Source of the DNA: Clostridia bacterium
Lineage (GTDB): Bacteria; Bacillota; TC1; UBA5767
Assembly: GCA_030625965.1 (NCBI GenBank)
Contig: DAOUPV010000006.1
Location: 1 to 64,000 of the forward strand
Length of the DNA stretch: 64,000 bases
Reading direction: 5' to 3'
Shown here: one piece after another, positions 4,031 through 35,257 of the stretch
Layout: every line of letters begins with the position of its first letter
Position numbering within the stretch: position 1 is the stretch's first letter
Translations under genes and position numbers: made by a program
Notes under the pieces: model-generated
Told to the model about the DNA's origin: nothing
The model's input: only the letters and a program-made list of their open reading frames with translations
Database searches by the model: none

Positions 4031-4972
4031 TTAGAACAGACCTTTCTTCCTCATTCCGAATATTGTTGCCACCGACAAAAAGAGTGATACGGCCACGATG
4101 ATATAGAATCCGAAAGGATTTCCCTGTATCGGCAGTGCTACGTTCATACCGTAGAAACTAGCGATCATCGTAGGAATCGTCAGGATGATTGTGATGCTGG
4201 TCAGCACCTTCATTACAATGTTCAGGTTGTTTGAAATGATGGAAGCGAAGGCATCCATCATACCACTCAGGATGTTCGAGTTGATCTCACTCATATCAAT
4301 CGCCTGTTTGTTTTCCGTCAACACATCTTCCAGTAGATCCTCATCTTCTTCATAAAGAGGGATGCACTTGGTGCGCAGTATCTTCTTCATCACCAGCTCG
4401 TTACTCCTGAGCGAGGTAGTGAAGTAGACCAGGGATTTTTCCATGTTGAGCAACTTGATCAGCTGTTCATTCTTCAGTGCACCATGCAGAGAATTCTCTA
4501 GCTCTAGCGACCGTCGATCAATTTTCTTAAGATACTTCAGATAATATATGGCCGTCTTATACATGATTTGGAGAGTGAAACGTGTTTTCTTCCCTGTTGA
4601 AAAGGACTTCATCCTTTTGTTTACGAAATCGGTAATGATATCCACATCCTCCAAACAGACAGTAATCACGCGATCCTCCAGATATATGATTCCCAACGGA
4701 ATGGTGTCGTAGCGGACATTATCGAGGGATTCCTCCTCCTCTACCACCGGTATGTTGATCAGAATCAAGGTCTGTTCATCCTCTATGTCAATTCTAGGAC
4801 GTTCTTCATCATCCATCGGCGCTTCCAGAAACTCAGTGAGGGCACCGGTCTCTTTGTGCACAGTTAGAATTTCTTCTTTGGTCGGTCTGACCATTTTAAT
4901 CCAACTTCTTGGCTCCTTGATGTCCACTTCCTGGACATCCATGCCTTCCTTGGCAATGTAGGCGGTAATCAT
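4031..4972 (-). CDS. corA: CorA-family magnesium transport protein
   Basis: This is a pentameric Mg2+ channel of the CorA type, 313 residues. The N-terminal two thirds form the cytosolic alpha/beta and long stalk-helix domain. Two transmembrane helices lie at the C-terminus, the first ending in the diagnostic selectivity motif YGMN and the second followed by a short basic tail (RKKGLF). AAGGAGGCC sits directly before the ATG. Expression is probably controlled by Mg2+: the upstream leader is an M-box riboswitch with its terminator, followed by a small ORF whose stop touches the corA ribosome binding site. Confidence 0.93.
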   Translation of the reverse strand: MITAYIAKEGMDVQEVDIKEPRSWIKMVRPTKEEILTVHKETGALTEFLEAPMDDEERPRIDIEDEQTLILINIPVVEEEESLDNVRYDTIPLGIIYLEDRVITVCLEDVDIITDFVNKRMKSFSTGKKTRFTLQIMYKTAIYYLKYLKKIDRRSLELENSLHGALKNEQLIKLLNMEKSLVYFTTSLRSNELVMKKILRTKCIPLYEEDEDLLEDVLTENKQAIDMSEINSNILSGMMDAFASIISNNLNIVMKVLTSITIILTIPTMIASFYGMNVALPIQGNPFGFYIIVAVSLFLSVATIFGMRKKGLF

Positions 4973-4986
4973 AATTGGCCTCCTTA

Positions 4987-5076
4987 CTAGGGCCGCAACG
5001 ACCCCCTGTGGCTATTTTGCTTTTGTTCGTTCGTCTTATCTGCCATTACGTCCTTACATAATCGCGGGTCGTCCAT
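4987..5076 (-). CDS. Small leader ORF (29 codons) between the M-box and corA
   Basis: This unrecognised short reading frame begins MDDPRLCKDVMADK and ends GSLRP. It has a full-strength GGAGGTGAGG ribosome binding site, which starts right after the U-tract of the riboswitch terminator. Its TAG stop abuts the AAGGAGG of corA. The product is hydrophilic, with no signal or membrane segment. The position suggests a leader peptide that couples or gates corA translation. It may also be an untranslated accident. The strong ribosome binding site and exact fit are what is seen; the role is inferred. Confidence 0.5.
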   Translation of the reverse strand: MDDPRLCKDVMADKTNEQKQNSHRGSLRP

Positions 5077-5088
5077 TACCTCACCTCC

Positions 5089-5297
5089 AAAAAAAAAACC
5101 GCTTCAAAATAGAAACGGTCCCCATGCGCTATACCGAAACTATCCTCGATCAGTTTTGGCTCAACATAACGTAGGGCATGCCCAGCTACATTAAGCAATA
5201 CCTTAAGCCGATATTGCCTGCTGACCCTTTGGCATCTCTCGATGTTTCAGGGCAGTAGCCTCTGTTTATGTAGTAACCTCACCTAACGATATTCTCT
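5089..5297 (-). promoter_or_regulatory. M-box (ykoK) Mg2+ riboswitch with terminator, upstream of corA
   Basis: Read on the minus strand, the leader carries the hallmark M-box blocks. These are CGTTAGGTGAGG, then CTACATAAACAGAGGCTACTG, then ATCGAGAGATGCCAAAGGGT, and further on a GTAGCTGGGCATGCCCTACG-like arm. The distal end is a hairpin (ACCGTTTC ... GAAGCGGT) followed by nine or more T residues (about 5089-5120 on the plus strand). By known M-box behaviour, high Mg2+ should favour termination and low Mg2+ read-through into corA. Ends are approximate. Confidence 0.93.
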
Positions 5298-10838: not shown

Positions 10839-11519
10839 ATGAAACTATTGAATGAATCCATATGTAAACTTATGCGCTTTCTGATTACGATTACCATAGT
10901 GGCCGTCGTATCCTTCACCGCCATTAACCTTTATATCCTGCAAACTGCCAGAGCAGACTGTCATACCATTGAGAACTTCGGACCGGATGATTCTGTGGAT
11001 GCCATCATCGTATTGGGCGCCGCCATGTATAACAGCGGTCCTTCCCTGATGCTTCGAGATCGTCTGGAAGCCGCCATATCACTCTATGATGCCGGGGTGT
11101 CAGAAAGGATACTGGTAAGCGGTGATCATGGACGAAATGATTATAATGAGGTCGAAGGCATGAGAACCTATCTGCTCGCCGCCGGCATTCCGGATGAGCA
11201 CATCTTCATGGACCACGCCGGTTTCGATACGTACAGCAGCATGTACCGGGCCAATGACGTCTTTATGATAAAGACCGCCGTTATATCCACTCAGGAATTC
11301 CATCTGTCCCGAGCGGTCTATCTAGCCAGACGTCTCGGGCTTGACGCATCCGGCGTCATCTGCGACCAGCATGATTATTTGTTCATGGGCAGGAACGAGA
11401 TACGTGAATCTCTTGCCCGCGTTAAGGCCTGGTTGCAGGCTGAACTATTCCACAGCAAACCTCGATATCTAGGGGATGTCATAGACATCCGCGGGTCCGG
11501 ATTGAATACCCATGATTAA
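10839..11519 (+). CDS. YdcF/SanA-like DUF218 membrane protein
   Basis: This is a 226-residue protein of the DUF218 (YdcF/SanA/ElyC) family, linked in other bacteria to envelope integrity. An N-terminal membrane anchor (about residues 11-32) is followed by the domain with DAIIVLGAAMYNSGPSLMLRDRLEAA-type sequence, ERILVSGDHG, and TAVISTQEFHLSRAVYLARRLG near 145-166. No convincing ribosome binding site precedes the ATG; an alternative start is the next in-frame ATG at 10872. It is alone on the plus strand between two minus-strand operons and interrupts the usual dxs-tlyA order. Confidence 0.8.
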   Translation: MKLLNESICKLMRFLITITIVAVVSFTAINLYILQTARADCHTIENFGPDDSVDAIIVLGAAMYNSGPSLMLRDRLEAAISLYDAGVSERILVSGDHGRNDYNEVEGMRTYLLAAGIPDEHIFMDHAGFDTYSSMYRANDVFMIKTAVISTQEFHLSRAVYLARRLGLDASGVICDQHDYLFMGRNEIRESLARVKAWLQAELFHSKPRYLGDVIDIRGSGLNTHD

Positions 11520-11550
11520 AAAAAAGACCTCAGTCAATGAGGTCTTTCTT
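11518..11550. terminator. Bidirectional terminator between the SanA-like gene and dxs
   Basis: An inverted repeat AAAGACCTCA-GTCAA-TGAGGTCTTT has an A-tract on one side and T residues on the other. It overlaps the convergent 3' ends of the plus-strand gene and dxs. Confidence 0.75.
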
Positions 11551-13386
11551 CAACTCTATGCAGGCGTTGATGACACTTACGTCATCAATACCGAATTTCT
11601 TCCTTAAATCCTGTGTCTCTCCATGCTCGATGAAGGCATCTGGCAATGCAAGGCGTCGCACTGGAATCTGGCAGTTGACAGCTTGCAGGATGCTGGCTCC
11701 CAGGCCGTTTTCCTGACAATTCTCTTCAACCACCAACACAGCCTTGTATTTTTCTATGAGGTCTGCGAATTCTTCGCTTGAAAAAGGTTTCGCTTTTCTG
11801 AGACCCATCAGGGCGACAGATATCCCCTGCTCCTTCAATTGCTCTCTAGCTTTGATGCAGGTAATCATCGAATTGCTGGCTGAAACCACTAGTATGTCCC
11901 CTTCTTTTTCAATCCAGGAGTAATCGCCTTCGATGGTCTTCAATTCATGAATCCTTGGCAATACGATGTCGCGTGGATAGCGGATCATGACCGGGCCGTC
12001 TTTTTCCATGGCCTCGTTCATCATCAGTTCCATGTCCTCTTCATCGCATGGCAGGAGTATTTCTAGATTAGGAACGGATTTGAATATCCCCAAATCCATA
12101 ATTCCCTGATGCGTTTCCCCATCCTGACCGACTAAACCGGCCCGATCGACACAGAAAACCACTGGTAGATTCTGCATGCAGACATCGTGGATAACCTGAT
12201 CCACCGCCCGCTGCATGAATGTCGCATATATGGCGACCACCGGCTTCAATCCAGCAGTTGCCAATCCTGCGGCAAAGGTCACGGCGTGCTGTTCTGCAAT
12301 GGCCGTATCATAAAACCGAGTTGGATATCTTTGCTGGAACTCGCTCAGTCCTGTTCCCTTGGCCATGGCTGCCGTTATGGCCACCAATTCCTCACGTTTT
12401 TCAGCCTGCTTCAACAGTTGCTCGGAAAAGCACTGGGTAAAGGTCTTTCTATCCTTCTTCACAATTGTACCGTCCGATACTTGGAATGATCCCACGCCGT
12501 GGAATTTCTCCGGATGATCCATAGCCGGCGTATAACCGCGGCCTTTTTGGGTAATCACATGAAGCATGACCGGTCCTTCCAAAGACTTGATGCGCTCCAG
12601 ATGATCGATCAGCGCCCTGAGATCATGTCCGTCGACCGGCCCAAGGTACGTGAATCCCAATTCTTCAAACAAGATTCCAGAGATGAAGAAGTATTTCAGT
12701 CTGTCTTTAAATCGTTCAATCCCGCGTTTCAGCGGTTTTCCCAGCATAGGTATCTTCTCGATCCAACTGGCTACTCCCCGCTTTGTGCTCAGATACATAG
12801 ACCCGGTACGCACCCGATCCAGATAATTGGACAATGCCCCTACATTGCTGTCTATAGACATTTCATTGTCATTTAGAATGACCAAGAAATCCGTATCGAG
12901 ATGTCCGGCATGGTTGATGGCCTCAAATGCCATGCCTCCAGTCAATGCGCCATCGCCGATAACAGCTGTGACGTTTTGTTCTATTCCTTTAAGCTTGTAC
13001 GCTTCCGCTATGCCCATGGCCGCCGATATGGACGTGGCGCTATGTCCGGTCTCGAAGATATCATGTTCCGACTCACAGCGTTTGGGGAATCCTGAAAGGC
13101 CCCCCAGCTGACGTAAGGTGCAGAATTTATCTTTTCTTCCGGTAATCAACTTATGGGCATAGCTCTGGTGTCCTACATCCCAGATTACCTGATCCTTCGG
13201 TGAAGAAAAAACATAATGCCAAGCCAATGTGATTTCGACTGTCCCTAGACTGGATGCCAGATGTCCACCGGTTCTGGAAACTGAAGAGATGATCTCTTCC
13301 CGGATTTCCTTTGCCAGTGCTTCCAGCTGATTTATATTCAGATGCTTCAATTGTTCCGGTCCGTCTATCTGTTCCAGAATGCTCAT
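11530..13386 (-). CDS. dxs: 1-deoxy-D-xylulose-5-phosphate synthase
   Basis: This is the first enzyme of the MEP isoprenoid pathway: thiamine-diphosphate-dependent condensation of pyruvate and glyceraldehyde 3-phosphate. At 618 residues, it has the transketolase-type N-terminal domain with the GHQSYAHKLITGR region and the ThDP motif GDGALTGGMAFEAINHAG (about 145-162). The pyrimidine-binding domain shows AIAEQHAVTFAAGLA and DRAGLVGQDGETHQG, and a C-terminal domain completes it. It starts one base after the oapA stop with GAGGAAACG in front. It is the last gene of the folD...ispA-OLE-oapA-dxs unit. Confidence 0.96.
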   Translation of the reverse strand: MSILEQIDGPEQLKHLNINQLEALAKEIREEIISSVSRTGGHLASSLGTVEITLAWHYVFSSPKDQVIWDVGHQSYAHKLITGRKDKFCTLRQLGGLSGFPKRCESEHDIFETGHSATSISAAMGIAEAYKLKGIEQNVTAVIGDGALTGGMAFEAINHAGHLDTDFLVILNDNEMSIDSNVGALSNYLDRVRTGSMYLSTKRGVASWIEKIPMLGKPLKRGIERFKDRLKYFFISGILFEELGFTYLGPVDGHDLRALIDHLERIKSLEGPVMLHVITQKGRGYTPAMDHPEKFHGVGSFQVSDGTIVKKDRKTFTQCFSEQLLKQAEKREELVAITAAMAKGTGLSEFQQRYPTRFYDTAIAEQHAVTFAAGLATAGLKPVVAIYATFMQRAVDQVIHDVCMQNLPVVFCVDRAGLVGQDGETHQGIMDLGIFKSVPNLEILLPCDEEDMELMMNEAMEKDGPVMIRYPRDIVLPRIHELKTIEGDYSWIEKEGDILVVSASNSMITCIKAREQLKEQGISVALMGLRKAKPFSSEEFADLIEKYKAVLVVEENCQENGLGASILQAVNCQIPVRRLALPDAFIEHGETQDLRKKFGIDDVSVINACIELKKDLID

Positions 13387-13387
13387 A

Positions 13388-13945
13388 TCAACGTTTCCTC
13401 TTTATCATTAAATCTATTCTGAATTTAGCAATGACCCGGGCCACAACATGAATGATCTTGTTGGCCTGATGCATGGCGTAGTTTTTGCCTAAGGCTTTTC
13501 CGCCCACTGTTAGTCCTGCGATACTGCTGGTTATGAGGATTTCCACAAAGAGATTGTCCAAGCTTGACCTAACGATCAGAATCGCCAAGCCGGCGCCTAA
13601 GGCACCACTGATGGCTGAACTGACGTCACCTACCACATCGTTACAGATATTGGCTACCCGATCCGCGTTACGCACCAGATAGGCCCCTTGTACTCCACCC
13701 GGAACCCTTTTGGCAGCCATGGCATGAAAAACATCCTCATCGGCTGCTGTTACTGCTGTGCCGACCAGATCGAATAGTATCCCAAATACAATAATCAGCA
13801 AAAGAATCACAGTCGCCGCCAAAACAGACGTCAACTTCTCCATGACACCCTTGCTGATAAAACTGACCATAAGCGCAAGAAAAAAGGCTCCAACGCCCAC
13901 GATAATCGCTCTTCTAATAATTTTTGCTTTCGCTTCTCTAGCCAT
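13388..13945 (-). CDS. oapA: OLE-associated membrane protein OapA
   Basis: This 185-residue membrane protein lies directly downstream of the OLE RNA region and directly upstream of dxs, the diagnostic place of OapA. OapA is known in Bacillus halodurans to bind OLE RNA and bring it to the membrane. The sequence has a basic N-terminus, two adjacent hydrophobic segments (about residues 13-32 and 38-63), a middle region with AADEDVFHAMAAKRVPGG and RNADRVANICNDVVGDVSSAISG, another hydrophobic stretch (about 112-148), and a very basic tail ending MIKRKR. Its relatives are often mislabelled CorB-like or DUF21-like. AAAGGAAGACAC precedes the ATG. Confidence 0.82.
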   Translation of the reverse strand: MAREAKAKIIRRAIIVGVGAFFLALMVSFISKGVMEKLTSVLAATVILLLIIVFGILFDLVGTAVTAADEDVFHAMAAKRVPGGVQGAYLVRNADRVANICNDVVGDVSSAISGALGAGLAILIVRSSLDNLFVEILITSSIAGLTVGGKALGKNYAMHQANKIIHVVARVIAKFRIDLMIKRKR

Positions 13946-13949
13946 GTGT

Positions 13950-14578
13950 CTTCCTTTAAGTAAATTGGTGGCCGTCGACGCAGTAAACTTTACGGCTTAG
14001 GTCCAGTTGGATTTCCCCTTGCTCTACAGTCCGTCACCGTGGCTGTGGTTTCCCATTAAAGAGCAATCTGATGCGTTACCGCCATCATCACTAGATCGCC
14101 ACTTAGCTCGTACTTTAATCCTACGTCAACAGTCAGTCTAGAAGTTTTCCTTAGCAGATCATGCTGATTCCTAGCCTCTTTTGCAATTGAAGTTTCATCG
14201 TATTTGCAGCGCCTACGGCCGTAGGCAATTGCAAACCTTGTTAGACCCCTCTCCAACCACTCAAGGCAGGCTACTCTGCAGCAAGCATTATGCTACCAAC
14301 TGCAGGTTTCTACCCCATGTCATACCCCTGATCAGTTAACCAGAGCCACAAGCATGGGCCTCCACGAAGGTAGGGTCATCGCCCGCATGCCCTTGCGGAT
14401 CGCCCCAGCCTTCTTAACCTCCACCATATGCCCTCGCGGTGCATCGAAAGCAAGTGCCAGAGACTTCATCGCTGTGCCCATGACGGATTTTTAGGCCCGC
14501 CTTCAAAATCAATACGCCTGACTAGAATACTGTGCCACCAAACCACATTATACAGCACCAACCTCTCAGTTAGCAAAT
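13950..14578 (-). ncRNA. ole: OLE RNA (ornate, large, extremophilic RNA)
   Basis: A 634-nt gap between ispA and oapA holds no credible gene, while its size and place (ispA-OLE-oapA-dxs) match the OLE RNA locus exactly. The minus-strand sequence is rich in helices. One is GGG-CCGCA...TGCGG-CCC (about 14373-14407), with an internal loop containing GCGAT/GCGATGA that resembles a kink-turn. Another is a perfect GCCTACGGCCGTAGGC palindrome at 14211-14226. By known biology, OLE forms a membrane RNP with OapA, plus OapB/OapC encoded elsewhere, and influences stress and Mg2+ responses. Identification rests on context and size; exact ends are not determined. Confidence 0.85.
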
Positions 14579-14579
14579 G

Positions 14580-15467
14580 TTAATAGGCTCTGCGTAAGAT
14601 GAAATCACATAGTCCGGCAAAAAATCTGACATCGAATCCTACCAGTTTGCTGAGTTCGAGCTCGGCATTGGCGATCTCATCCTCCGCCCGTTCTTTGGCC
14701 GCCTGCATACCCAACAAGGCCGGATAGGTCATTTTCCCTGATGCCTCATCGGATCCCACAGGCTTGCCAAGCACATCCTCCTCGCCTTCTACATCCAGAA
14801 TGTCATCTGTTATCTGGAAGGCAAGTCCCAGATGGGTCGCATATTTCTCCAACAGGTCCATCGTTGCGGAATCGGCATTCGCCAGTCTGGCGCCGCATTG
14901 GATGGATACCCTGATCAGGTCCGCTGTCTTATGGTTATGGATATACGAAAGCAAATCCTCAGTAGGTTGTTTCCCTTCTGAGAGGATATCAACCACCTGT
15001 CCACCAATCACACCTCTGGGTCCGATAGCCTTCGCGATGTCCCCAATCACGGCAACAGTAGTGGCCGCAGGTATCGTTTTATTCTCCTGGCTGACCAGGG
15101 AGAAGGCGGCAAATACCAGAGCATCACCTGCCAACACTGCAATATCTTCACCAAATACTTTGTGACAAGTCGGAACGCCTCTTCTGAAATCGTCATCATC
15201 CATACAAGGCAGATCATCATGAATCAGTGTGAAGGTATGGATCATCTCCAAAGCAAGTGCCACATTCTTACCCTGCTCCGGATCAGCCCCCAGCATCTTC
15301 ATCGTCTCATAGAGCAGAATCGGTCTGAGCCGCTTTCCGCCAGCCATCAGGCTATGCTCCATGGCCTTCCCGAGAATCTCGGCATACGGATCAACATTAG
15401 GGATGGCATCCTTCAGCCAGGAATCGACCAAGCTTTTTCTATCGGCAAGTTCCTTTCTGATATCCAT
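14580..15467 (-). CDS. ispA: Farnesyl diphosphate synthase (polyprenyl synthetase)
   Basis: This enzyme makes C15 farnesyl diphosphate from DMAPP and IPP. I start it at MDIRKELADRK (ATG 15467), one base after the xseB stop, giving the usual 295 residues. The first aspartate-rich motif reads DDLPCMDDDDFRRG (about 83-96) and the second DDILDVEGEEDVLGK (about 223-237), with GGKRLRP near residue 42 for IPP binding. It is co-transcribed with xseAB upstream and OLE-oapA-dxs downstream. Confidence 0.95.
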   Translation of the reverse strand: MDIRKELADRKSLVDSWLKDAIPNVDPYAEILGKAMEHSLMAGGKRLRPILLYETMKMLGADPEQGKNVALALEMIHTFTLIHDDLPCMDDDDFRRGVPTCHKVFGEDIAVLAGDALVFAAFSLVSQENKTIPAATTVAVIGDIAKAIGPRGVIGGQVVDILSEGKQPTEDLLSYIHNHKTADLIRVSIQCGARLANADSATMDLLEKYATHLGLAFQITDDILDVEGEEDVLGKPVGSDEASGKMTYPALLGMQAAKERAEDEIANAELELSKLVGFDVRFFAGLCDFILRRAY

Positions 15468-15468
15468 A

Positions 15469-15702
15469 TCAGTCCTCTTCCCCGCCCATATTCTCAGTCG
15501 TGAAGCGTCCACTCTTTTCCTTCAACAATACGAGCTGTTTCTCCGCACCATCCAGACGGCCGCGACAATCCAAGAGCAACACCATAGCCTGCTCATAAGT
15601 GCTTATCGCCTCCTCAAGTGGCAAAGCGCCCTGTTCCAGGTTTTTGGTCTTGTCTTCAAGCTCCTCTAAAAGCTCTTCGAATGTTCTTTCCTCTTTTTTC
15701 AC
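15469..15702 (-). CDS. xseB: Exodeoxyribonuclease VII small subunit
   Basis: This is the small helical subunit of ExoVII, which degrades single-stranded DNA from both ends. The 77-residue protein shows the family pattern TFEELLEELEDKTKNLEQGALPLEEA (split over residues 8-33) and a second helix. It starts at GTG, overlapping the xseA stop by 4 nt (GTGA), so it is translationally coupled to the large subunit. Confidence 0.92.
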   Translation of the reverse strand: MKKEERTFEELLEELEDKTKNLEQGALPLEEAISTYEQAMVLLLDCRGRLDGAEKQLVLLKEKSGRFTTENMGGEED

Positions 15703-16895
15703 GCTTCTTCCTCCTTGACCATAACAGTCACCACGCCGTCCTGGAAACGGACCGTAAAGGGCTCGTCCTGTCTCAGATCGGCATACCGGGATACCACGCT
15801 GTCCCGCTGTTCAACCACTGTGTATCCTCGTTCCAAGGTGGCTAAAGGATTCAACCCGCCAAGCCGTCCCTGGATCAACGCCAAACGTTCCTTATGTTTG
15901 TCGCATGCCGACTGGAAACTCTGGATCATCCGGTCCTGTATCGAATCCAGTCTCTCATTTTCCTTGTCAACCAGCAGTCGCGGATCGGCCAGTATGCTAT
16001 CTGCGCTGAGCCGTTCTAACTTTTCCTTGGAATCCTCCAGCTTTCGTCCGATCTGGTTCCCGCTTTGCATTAGACGTTCTTCCATCTGATTGAGTTGCAA
16101 CTGCACATCAGGCACTGCCACCTCAGCCGCAGCCGAAGGGGTTGGCGCTCTTAAATCGGCCACAAAATCAGTGATGGTAAAATCTGTTTCATGTCCTACT
16201 GCGGAAATGACCGGGATATCCGACGCATATATGGCCCGGGCGACTTCCTCCGTATTGAAAGCCCATAACTCCTCTAGAGAACCCCCTCCACGGCCAACTA
16301 TGATCAGATCCACTTCACCATAACGATTCAGCATGTCTATGGCTGCCACAATCTCTCCTGGGGCGTCTTTCCCTTGAACAGACGCTTTGGCCAACACCAG
16401 ACTGACAGAGGGATTCCGACGGCCCGCAACATGCCGGATATCGTGCAAAACCGACCCGGTCGCAGACGTGACAATACCGATCCTGCCAGGCAGCATCGGT
16501 ATTGTTCTTTTTCTAGCAAACAAGCCTTGTTCTTCCAATCTTTCTTTCAATTGGGTGTACGCTAGATACAATGCGCCCTGACCCAGTGGAAGAATTGAGT
16601 TGACATAGAGCTGTACGCTGCCCTGCGCTTCGAAAACCGATACGCGGCCTTGCACCAGCACTTCCATGCCGTCCTCCAGGTCAAACGTCAGTTTGGCGCT
16701 ATTGCTGGCGAACATGACACTTCTCAAGCTTGCTTTATCGTCTTTAATGGTGAAATAGATATGCCCTGAATAAGCTTTTTTGGCGTTAGATATCTCCCCT
16801 TTGACCCATAAGCGGGCCAGCTTGGGATCCTCCTCCAAGTCACTTTTGATCAAGCGAAGAACTTGGCTGACTTCCAAATAACTTTTGGGCAACAT
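15699..16895 (-). CDS. xseA: Exodeoxyribonuclease VII large subunit
   Basis: This is the catalytic subunit of ExoVII, 398 residues. The N-terminal OB-fold spans about 1-100 (LWVKGEISNAKKAYSGHIYF). The nuclease domain has GIVTSATGSVLHDI, DLIIVGRGGGSLEELWAFN and the catalytic-region sequence ISAVGHETDFTITDFVADLRAPTPSAA. A coiled coil follows, and GLNPLATLERGYTVV lies near the C-terminus. The gene lies between fchA and xseB with very short spacing. Confidence 0.95.
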   Translation of the reverse strand: MLPKSYLEVSQVLRLIKSDLEEDPKLARLWVKGEISNAKKAYSGHIYFTIKDDKASLRSVMFASNSAKLTFDLEDGMEVLVQGRVSVFEAQGSVQLYVNSILPLGQGALYLAYTQLKERLEEQGLFARKRTIPMLPGRIGIVTSATGSVLHDIRHVAGRRNPSVSLVLAKASVQGKDAPGEIVAAIDMLNRYGEVDLIIVGRGGGSLEELWAFNTEEVARAIYASDIPVISAVGHETDFTITDFVADLRAPTPSAAAEVAVPDVQLQLNQMEERLMQSGNQIGRKLEDSKEKLERLSADSILADPRLLVDKENERLDSIQDRMIQSFQSACDKHKERLALIQGRLGGLNPLATLERGYTVVEQRDSVVSRYADLRQDEPFTVRFQDGVVTVMVKEEEA

Positions 16896-16897
16896 TT

Positions 16898-17524
16898 CTA
16901 CAGTCTGCCTTTAACGATCTCTACTGCTTCATTCATCAGCTTCTCAGATTTTTCAATCTGTGCGTCGCGTCTTGTTGCTGCTTCGTTTACAAAATCTTTA
17001 TCCTTGATGCCAGGCAGGTTAATATCTACCGCCAGAAGAACACCTTTCAAAGATGCATCAGCGATGATAGCACCAACGCCTACATCGGAAATAGCGGATT
17101 TGTTGCCAATAGGCGCCAAGCGCAAAGCCATCTCGTTGGCTTTTATGCAGGTGTCAGCGATTTCCAAAGGTGAAAGCGTTGCTTTCTTGTATGCGTCCTG
17201 CAATGCTGCAGTACGTACGGCCTTCTCTTCATCGTTGGTCTTAGGCATCTTCAAAGCATCCATAAACGCTCCGAATACGGCCATGTCATCGTCTACCTGT
17301 TTCTCCAGATCAACCATGACCTGAGAGATTTCAGCAAGAATCGCATCGATTTCAGATTGAACCTCGGCGTACTTATCGCCTTTGGACAGGTTAGCAACCA
17401 TGGAAACCATAGCGGCTCCAAAACATCCCGCCATAGCGGCTACACTACCACCACCTGGAGTAGGTGAGTTGGAAGCTGATTCTTCTAAAACTTGTGCAAA
17501 CGGTTTATCGAAATATCTAGACAT
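16898..17524 (-). CDS. fchA: Cyclodeaminase/cyclohydrolase family protein (FchA-like methenyl-THF cyclohydrolase)
   Basis: This is a 208-residue all-helical protein of the FTCD_C family. Members hydrolyse 5,10-methenyl-THF (FchA) or deaminate formimino-THF. The signature SPTPGGGSVAAMAGCFGAAMVSMV lies near residues 20-43, and GNKSAISDVGVGA near 139-151. Of two adjacent ATGs, the second (17524) is better spaced from AAGGAGGAT. Immediately upstream is folD, so the pair handles methylene/methenyl-THF interconversion. Since FolD is usually bifunctional, FchA may add cyclohydrolase capacity, or act as cyclodeaminase in purine/glycine fermentation. The choice is not decided by the sequence. Confidence 0.82.
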   Translation of the reverse strand: MSRYFDKPFAQVLEESASNSPTPGGGSVAAMAGCFGAAMVSMVANLSKGDKYAEVQSEIDAILAEISQVMVDLEKQVDDDMAVFGAFMDALKMPKTNDEEKAVRTAALQDAYKKATLSPLEIADTCIKANEMALRLAPIGNKSAISDVGVGAIIADASLKGVLLAVDINLPGIKDKDFVNEAATRRDAQIEKSEKLMNEAVEIVKGRL

Positions 17525-17539
17525 CATATCCTCCTTGGA

Positions 17540-18388
17540 CTACTTTCCTTGCAATCCCATGCCTTTGATCAGGTTTCTGAACAATAGCACAGTGGTCAAA
17601 GAACCAACACCACCCGGTACCGGGGAGATATGGCTTGCAACTTTTTCAGCGCTTTCGTAATCTACGTCGCCGACATAACCGCCGCCTTCGACTTCATTCA
17701 CACCAGCGTCAACTACGATGGCGCCTTCTTTGATCATATCTCCTGTAATCAATCCGGCTCTTCCTACAGCAGCGATAACCACATCAGCGGATTTCACTTC
17801 TTCAGCCAGGTTTTTGGTTCTGGAGTGGCATACGGTGATAGTAGGATTATACTTCAGAAGCATGAATACCAACGGCTTACCAACAGTCTCTCCACGACCA
17901 ACGATGACAGCTTTCTTGCCAGTCATGTCAATGCCGGTGCTCAGTACGCACTCGATGCAGGACTCTGGAGTTGCCGGGAACAGCCCTTCGGATCCCTGCA
18001 GGATGTATCCACGGTTGATGGGATTCACACCATCCACGTCCTTCAAAGGATCAACCATGCCCATAATCTTGTCTTTGTCGAGCTGAGCCGGTAGGGGAAG
18101 CTCGATCATGATGCCGTGCACGTTTTCGTCCTGGTTCAGTCTGTCCACCAGAATCTCAACTTCTTCTTGTTCTGTTTCGCTAGACAGCTCATAGAAATCG
18201 TATAGGATGCCAACCTTTTCAGCAGCCTTCTTCTTTGACTTAGCGTACCATACGGAAGCGGGATCATTTCCGACCAATACTACTGCCAGTCTCGGCTCTA
18301 CGCCTTTCGCTTTAAACGCCTCAACATCCAGAGCCACTTTTTCGCGAATCTCTTTTGCAATCAGTTTACCATCAATAATGTTTGCCAT
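17540..18388 (-). CDS. folD: Bifunctional methylene-THF dehydrogenase/methenyl-THF cyclohydrolase
   Basis: FolD interconverts 5,10-methylene-, methenyl- and 10-formyl-THF with NAD(P). I start it at MANIIDGKLIAKEI (ATG 18388), because the earlier in-frame ATG is itself part of the GGAGG site. It has 282 residues with YAKSKKKAAEKVGI, including the catalytic Lys region near residues 53-66, the PLPAQLDKDKIM stretch, the Rossmann motif VIVGRGETVGKP, and C-terminal PVPGGVGSLTTVLLFRN. It is the first gene of the operon that runs through OLE to dxs, after the promoter at 18437-18465. Confidence 0.96.
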   Translation of the reverse strand: MANIIDGKLIAKEIREKVALDVEAFKAKGVEPRLAVVLVGNDPASVWYAKSKKKAAEKVGILYDFYELSSETEQEEVEILVDRLNQDENVHGIMIELPLPAQLDKDKIMGMVDPLKDVDGVNPINRGYILQGSEGLFPATPESCIECVLSTGIDMTGKKAVIVGRGETVGKPLVFMLLKYNPTITVCHSRTKNLAEEVKSADVVIAAVGRAGLITGDMIKEGAIVVDAGVNEVEGGGYVGDVDYESAEKVASHISPVPGGVGSLTTVLLFRNLIKGMGLQGK

Positions 18389-18436
18389 TTTAACCTCCAT
18401 TAATTATATACATTAAACTTTTTCTATCCAATTCAA

Positions 18437-35080: not shown

Positions 35081-35257
35081 AAAAAAATCCCACTAGTGGT
35101 TACTGCTTGTTTAAACCCTGCGCAGCAGGTGGGTATTCTGTTTACTACTTCTGTATTCCGGATTAACGGCTGCACATAGATAGCAAAACTCCGAATTCCC
35201 AAGGTCATAGTGTCGGTTTAAATATCACAGCACCATCTCTAGCAGGAAATGGTTATC
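35081..35257 (-). ncRNA. Candidate structured RNA upstream of alaS (possible 6S RNA)
   Basis: This roughly 177-nt gene-less transcript has its own promoter (35264-35292) and a T7 tract at the 3' end. The two ends can pair over distance: CTGCT with AGCAG, then a perfect TTTAAACC with GGTTTAAA, enclosing a rod with TTCGGA/TCCGGAA and, on the 3' side, a small CTGCGCAG hairpin. A long closed rod with a 3' central hairpin is what 6S RNA looks like. In Bacillus subtilis, 6S-1 RNA lies in the same broad neighbourhood as alaS. The RNA is fairly well supported; the 6S identity is a guess. Confidence 0.45.

Follow-up and report, generated by a model that had tools for sequence, protein, structure and literature searches.

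Identification of an OLE RNA gene

The region between ispA and oapA in the 64,000-nt stretch of Clostridia bacterium DNA analyzed here (contig DAOUPV010000006.1, positions 1 to 64,000; referred to as the window) is very probably an intact ole gene encoding a noncoding RNA of ~600 nt. The copy is complete and unremarkable for this large, already known RNA; it lies beside the gene for its membrane partner, an arrangement shared by most relatives of the bacterium. The initial annotation had placed an OLE RNA in this region and named a search with the Rfam OLE covariance model as a check. When all of Rfam 15 was searched with cmscan, the minus strand matched OLE (RF01071) from 13952 to 14554 along the complete model (positions 1-616 of 616), with a score of 430.6 bits (E = 4.1e-123) against an Rfam gathering score of 50 bits. 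The score also lies above the 390 bits taken as the threshold for "full-length" OLE RNAs in PMC11332333, where a different model was used. A genome search showed this to be the single OLE copy in the genome.

The 634-nt gap between the stop codon of ispA (14580) and the start codon of oapA (13945), i.e. 14579-13946, had been described as free of genes, and no plausible gene was found inside it: apart from a 66-codon TTG frame, that strand carries no open reading frame (ORF) of 60 or more amino acids there. The window ole keeps the P1 to P15 layout of the known OLE RNAs (e.g. those of Halalkalibacterium halodurans, Clostridium acetobutylicum, and C. botulinum) together with their A-rich P4 loop and GGCC L9.3 loop, and the gene order ispA-ole-oapA-dxs is common to the window and the known loci. 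It differs from them in the P5.1 loop, which has 8 nt (AUGC[A/U]CCG) instead of 5 nt (GCCCA), and in the kink-turn, which has G as the equivalent of nt 84.

On the upstream side, folD (17540-18400; PF00763, PF02882), fchA (16898-17527; PF04961, with an NF045657 match below its cut-off), xseA (15699-16895; TIGR00237), xseB (15469-15702; TIGR01280), and ispA, the gene of a polyprenyl/farnesyl diphosphate synthase (14580-15512; PF00348, NF045485), are nearly contiguous and all on the minus strand. On the downstream side, also on the minus strand, oapA (13388-13945) starts 6 nt beyond the end of the OLE model and is followed by dxs (11530-13386; TIGR00204). The identities originally assigned to these neighbors from the letters of the DNA were right according to Pfam and NCBIfam. 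Between dxs and tlyA lies an ORF on the opposite strand (10839-11519, plus strand; 226 codons, ElyC/YdcF-like by eye), which makes dxs the probable last gene of the ole operon.

A total of 44 OapA homologs were found. OLE lies directly upstream of oapA in 43 of the 44 loci, and the contig of the remaining one begins ~300 nt before the gene; this recurrence, together with the E-value, excludes a chance match. Since dxs is also present at 40 of these 44 loci, with folD nearby at 16 and fchA at 12, the OLE-oapA arrangement, initially called a signature layout, is indeed the standard one. When the phylum was sampled evenly, 181 of the 250 genomes contained OLE.

In one genome of the same taxonomic order (L053; G006:C15:391342-391998), OLE is strongly diverged and scores 170 bits over the full model, and several sister species of that genome are without OLE; the diverged copy possibly represents decay or a variant class. 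The window also holds a 6S RNA (35083-35251, minus strand) whose score of 51.4 bits is just over the gathering score.

OapA and the other protein partners

The membrane-protein gene before dxs had been proposed to be oapA, and three lines of evidence agree with this: a DxxxD motif, the synteny, and a CNNM/CorB-like predicted fold. The encoded protein has 185 amino acids and is 67% identical to its closest relative, from Peptococcaceae bacterium UBA5767 (L005), the closest named relative of the window organism, and 34-47% identical to the others. Its DxxxD motif (D103/D107) is invariant in 45 of 45 sequences. The AlphaFold2 model (pLDDT 81) is a four-helix membrane protein whose nearest folds in the PDB are the CNNM/CorB Mg2+ transporters 7m1t and 7m1u (probability 1.00 and TM 0.47-0.55, with an E-value of only 0.035). 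A CNNM/CorB-like fold has already been published for the OapA of H. halodurans (PMC11332333).

The window protein thus resembles the OapA of known OLE complexes in adjoining ole, in its four-helix membrane architecture, in the invariant DxxxD, and in the CNNM-like fold, with no notable difference between them. The MpfA/CorB CNNM transporters, although the nearest solved folds to the model, differ from it in that the window OapA has no CBS or CorC domains and carries the DxxxD motif. Pfam, CNNM included, gave no match for the protein, and the comparison of its sequence with solved structures returned nothing useful. A sub-threshold NCBIfam match to XrtH_assoc was ignored. The window genome also encodes one CNNM/MpfA homolog. 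This does not contradict the OLE reading, because OLE genomes typically carry at most one such homolog.

A search of the genome for oapB and oapC, likewise suggested at the outset, found both. The oapB gene sits between map and infA, and its product matches PDB 7k9b, "OLE-associated protein B" (E = 8e-8). The oapC gene sits between rpoC and rpsL, and its product of 87 amino acids matches solved YbxF (E = 4e-14). A gene for bS21, recently reported as an OLE partner (PMC12054373), is present as well.

Predicted promoter and transcript of ole

According to the initial annotation, the OLE RNA shares a transcript with the surrounding operon. This is plausible but incomplete, as a conserved promoter-like site lies directly upstream of ole. 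In the window, a predicted sigma-70-type promoter (TTGCTA-18-TATAAT, 10 of 12 matches) occupies 14547-14576 on the minus strand and ends, at 14547, just ahead of the 5' strand of P1. The best upstream promoter-like match reached at least 9 of 12 positions in 36 of 42 OLE loci (the window included) versus 7 of 168 control windows. Given this conservation, ole probably also makes its own transcript, and the signal suggests that it most likely has its own promoter beside operon read-through. Both modes have been reported for the ole of H. halodurans (PMC9723947).

With the ribosome-binding site of oapA directly behind P1, the 3' end of OLE might, beside acting in trans, also control oapA translation in cis. 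We consider this improbable. In P1, UUGGUGGC (14534-14541) is complementary to GCCACCAA (13965-13972), and the latter strand stops a few nucleotides ahead of the AAAGGA Shine-Dalgarno sequence of oapA (about 13952-13957), but the spacing between ole and the oapA start ranges from ~10 to several hundred nt among relatives, and such control would therefore be no general OLE feature. An ole gene encoding a noncoding RNA, probably from a promoter of its own, remains the preferred reading.

Kink-turn and dimer contacts

A kink-turn-like loop that OapC could bind had been pointed out at 14373-14407. A loop does exist there, namely the P6/P6.1 internal loop and hairpin (minus strand, placed by the covariance-model match), and its P6.1 loop is a partner in dimer bridge B2; the mapped OapC site, however, is J4a/5. 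As a kink-turn, the segment was rejected: its strands (GGGC-GA-U / CGAU-GA-CCC) have opposed GA steps, but the bulge is 1 or 4 nt, not 3. Published mapping puts the OapC site in J4a/5 with J5/6 (PMC9723947), the kink-turn seen by cryo-EM is formed by J4a/5 with J6/7 (PMC12286853), and nt 83-96 plus 136-147 of the H. halodurans RNA, which make up the minimal OapC construct, do not include the P6/P6.1 loop (PMC9723947). The corresponding elements of the window, all on the minus strand, are the J4a/5 segment at 14463-14476 (CACAGC-GAU-GAAGU, 5' strand of the published OapC kink-turn; assigned by position and PMC9723947, PMC12286853) and the J6/7 segment at 14357-14369 (CUUCGUGGAGGCC, 3' strand of the cryo-EM kink-turn; assigned by position and PMC12286853).

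The OapC kink-turn is characterized by a C-helix, a 3-nt bulge, and tandem G-A. The window J4a/5 has the GAU bulge, the GA, and the C85-G pair, while the nt-84 equivalent is a G without a standard partner in either published form. Among 68 parsed OLE rows, 57 have U or C here and can make a standard pair in one or both of these forms; the other 11, the window's family among them, have G or A without such a partner (several rows are the same genome twice, so that row counts overstate independence somewhat). All four family genomes share the G, which L058, L059, L067, and L082 have as well. Judged from the sequence, an unpaired G at this position predicts weaker or different OapC binding.

Of the published dimer contacts, B1 and B3 are kept in the window ole. 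The former is made by the A-rich P4 loop (CCUAAAAAUCC, 14485-14495, minus strand; assigned by sequence position), for which 71 of 77 OLE rows have a comparable A-rich loop; the latter is the palindromic GGCC of loop L9.3 (14214-14223, minus strand; PMC12286853). Bridge B2 is a pairing of P5.1 with P6.1 of the other subunit (PMC12265935, PMC12412911), and it is its P5.1 apical loop (AUGCACCG, 14437-14444, minus strand) that is remodelled in the window's family: its four genomes have AUGC[A/U]CCG, and every other readable row has a GCCC-type loop. The new loop can still pair with the P6.1 loop AAGGGCAU, giving duplex energies of -7.4 and -7.8 kcal/mol, compared with -4.9 to -8.9 kcal/mol for the usual combinations. 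As a single ancestral change is involved, the retained complementarity of P5.1 to P6.1 is suggestive rather than proof. Given the G at the nt-84 equivalent and the changed P5.1 loop, the window OLE may differ in how tightly it binds OapC or in how its dimer is arranged.

The same two changes, AUGC[A/U]CCG for GCCCA and the G, both present in all four family genomes, could also be taken as decay of an ole copy whose complex no longer forms. Such decay is very unlikely, however, in view of the full-length match at 430 bits, the retention of OapA, OapB, and OapC, the persistence of the variant across two genera of the family, the remaining capacity of the new P5.1 loop to pair with the P6.1 loop, and the recurrence of the nt-84 G in the four further loci named above. 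Less credible still is that the ole segment is a mere untranslated spacer or leader of oapA-dxs, since for all that it sits within a tight operon and has the oapA Shine-Dalgarno sequence inside the last bases of the RNA model, it matches the whole 616-position model (E = 4e-123) and is directly preceded by a promoter-like site in 36 of 42 loci.

Proposed function of the OLE complex

What the analysis itself shows for the window locus is its RNA family and synteny, the presence of the partner genes, a promoter signal, and a predicted fold for OapA. The functional picture comes from the OLE RNAs of H. halodurans and clostridia, in which OapA-dependent membrane localization, the binding sites of OapB, OapC, and bS21, and a dimer structure have been described, and knockouts are sensitive to cold, alcohol, Mg2+, and poor carbon sources (PMC9723947, PMC12054373, PMC12265935, PMC12286853; further support in PMC11332333). 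We infer by analogy that these binding sites, the dimer, and the stress roles hold in the window organism too.

The promoter at 14547-14576 would drive the ~600-nt RNA, and transcription running on from the folD-ispA operon would probably yield it as well. Homology to the studied OLE RNAs suggests that it folds into the OLE dimer and is anchored in the membrane through OapA, which would bind P2 and P4a, with OapC on the J4a/5 kink-turn, OapB on P12.2/P13, and bS21 on P6. The resulting ribonucleoprotein would serve in the stress response and be linked to Mg2+ homeostasis. Its most likely action would be the gating or sensing of ion flux through OapA with its CNNM-like fold, the ion-flux step itself being conjectural.

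Short ORFs behind M-box riboswitches

An M-box riboswitch was found by cmscan at 5135-5297 (140 bits), with a promoter-like site at 5332-5305 and a terminator-like hairpin at 5123-5094. Between this terminator and corA (4031-4972; PF01544) lies a 29-codon ORF (4987-5076, minus strand; MDDPRLCKDVMADKTNEQKQNSHRGSLRP) that has a strong GGAGG Shine-Dalgarno sequence and starts with MDDPR. Its start is kept in relatives and the rest of it little (MDDPRLCMDYKKYD... in G009, MDDPRDHKND... in UBA5767).

We analyzed the stretches behind the 89 M-boxes of the phylum sample, the window's included, some of which come from the same family and are not all independent. ORFs were counted if they had an ATG start, a Shine-Dalgarno sequence, D or E as residue 2, and three or more D/E/P/G residues from position 2 through 7. 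Such acidic/Pro/Gly starts were found behind 41 of the 89 M-boxes compared with 1.3 in dinucleotide shuffles (sd 1.1, maximum 5 in 100), a contrast somewhat inflated by the criterion having been set after the first sequences had been seen, with the same criterion applied to the shuffles. Zero ORFs met it on the reverse strand behind the same M-boxes, and a version restricted to D/E/P gave 27 of 89 versus 0.5 in shuffles. The starts include MDDPDADL, MDDPYPG, MEDPYPG, MDADPEPQ, MDADPDDL, MDGDPYPA, and MDSGPY; because the codons vary, the signal lies in the peptide.

With their acidic/Pro/Gly starts, these ORFs resemble the MgtL leader of E. coli, which senses low Mg2+ by ribosome drop-off at an EPDP motif (PMC11282234). 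A mycobacterial M-box followed by a uORF with a conserved proline, of unknown function, has been published (PMC12810186), and a literature search, with most subscription journals outside its scope, found no paper tying clostridial M-boxes to such ORFs. We give a slightly better than even chance to the idea that the short ORF behind many clostridial M-boxes, the window's included, senses Mg2+ a second time, at the level of translation and in the manner of MgtL, making up a two-stage Mg2+ switch before the transporter gene. Ribosome drop-off in low Mg2+ would then act between the riboswitch and that gene.

The M-box, short ORF, and corA form a separate transcription unit downstream of recN, and the opposite-strand gene at 10839-11519 between dxs and tlyA places corA outside the ole operon. 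A functional link between OLE and M-box/corA was considered and rejected: a spacing of 8.8-9.2 kb was seen only in the window's genus, in three genomes, more than 230 kb separate the two in 17 further genomes that carry them on a single contig, and corA adjoins the cluster in only 1 of 44 OapA loci. On these distances and counts, they are neighbors and not associated. Also near M-box/corA, at 73-2516 on the plus strand, is a metal-type ABC transporter (substrate-binding protein, ATPase, and permease), recognized by eye from the translations.

Discussion

Few structured bacterial RNAs that lack a known biochemical role are as large as OLE, which makes each well-characterized locus a comparison point. 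The window locus alone leaves the existing knowledge of OLE unchanged; its natural variant of the P5.1 dimer loop and the kink-turn could be used to test whether those contacts matter. The association of M-boxes with short ORFs may matter more than the window OLE, as it suggests that MgtL-like nascent-peptide sensing of Mg2+ recurs in clostridia with a different riboswitch.
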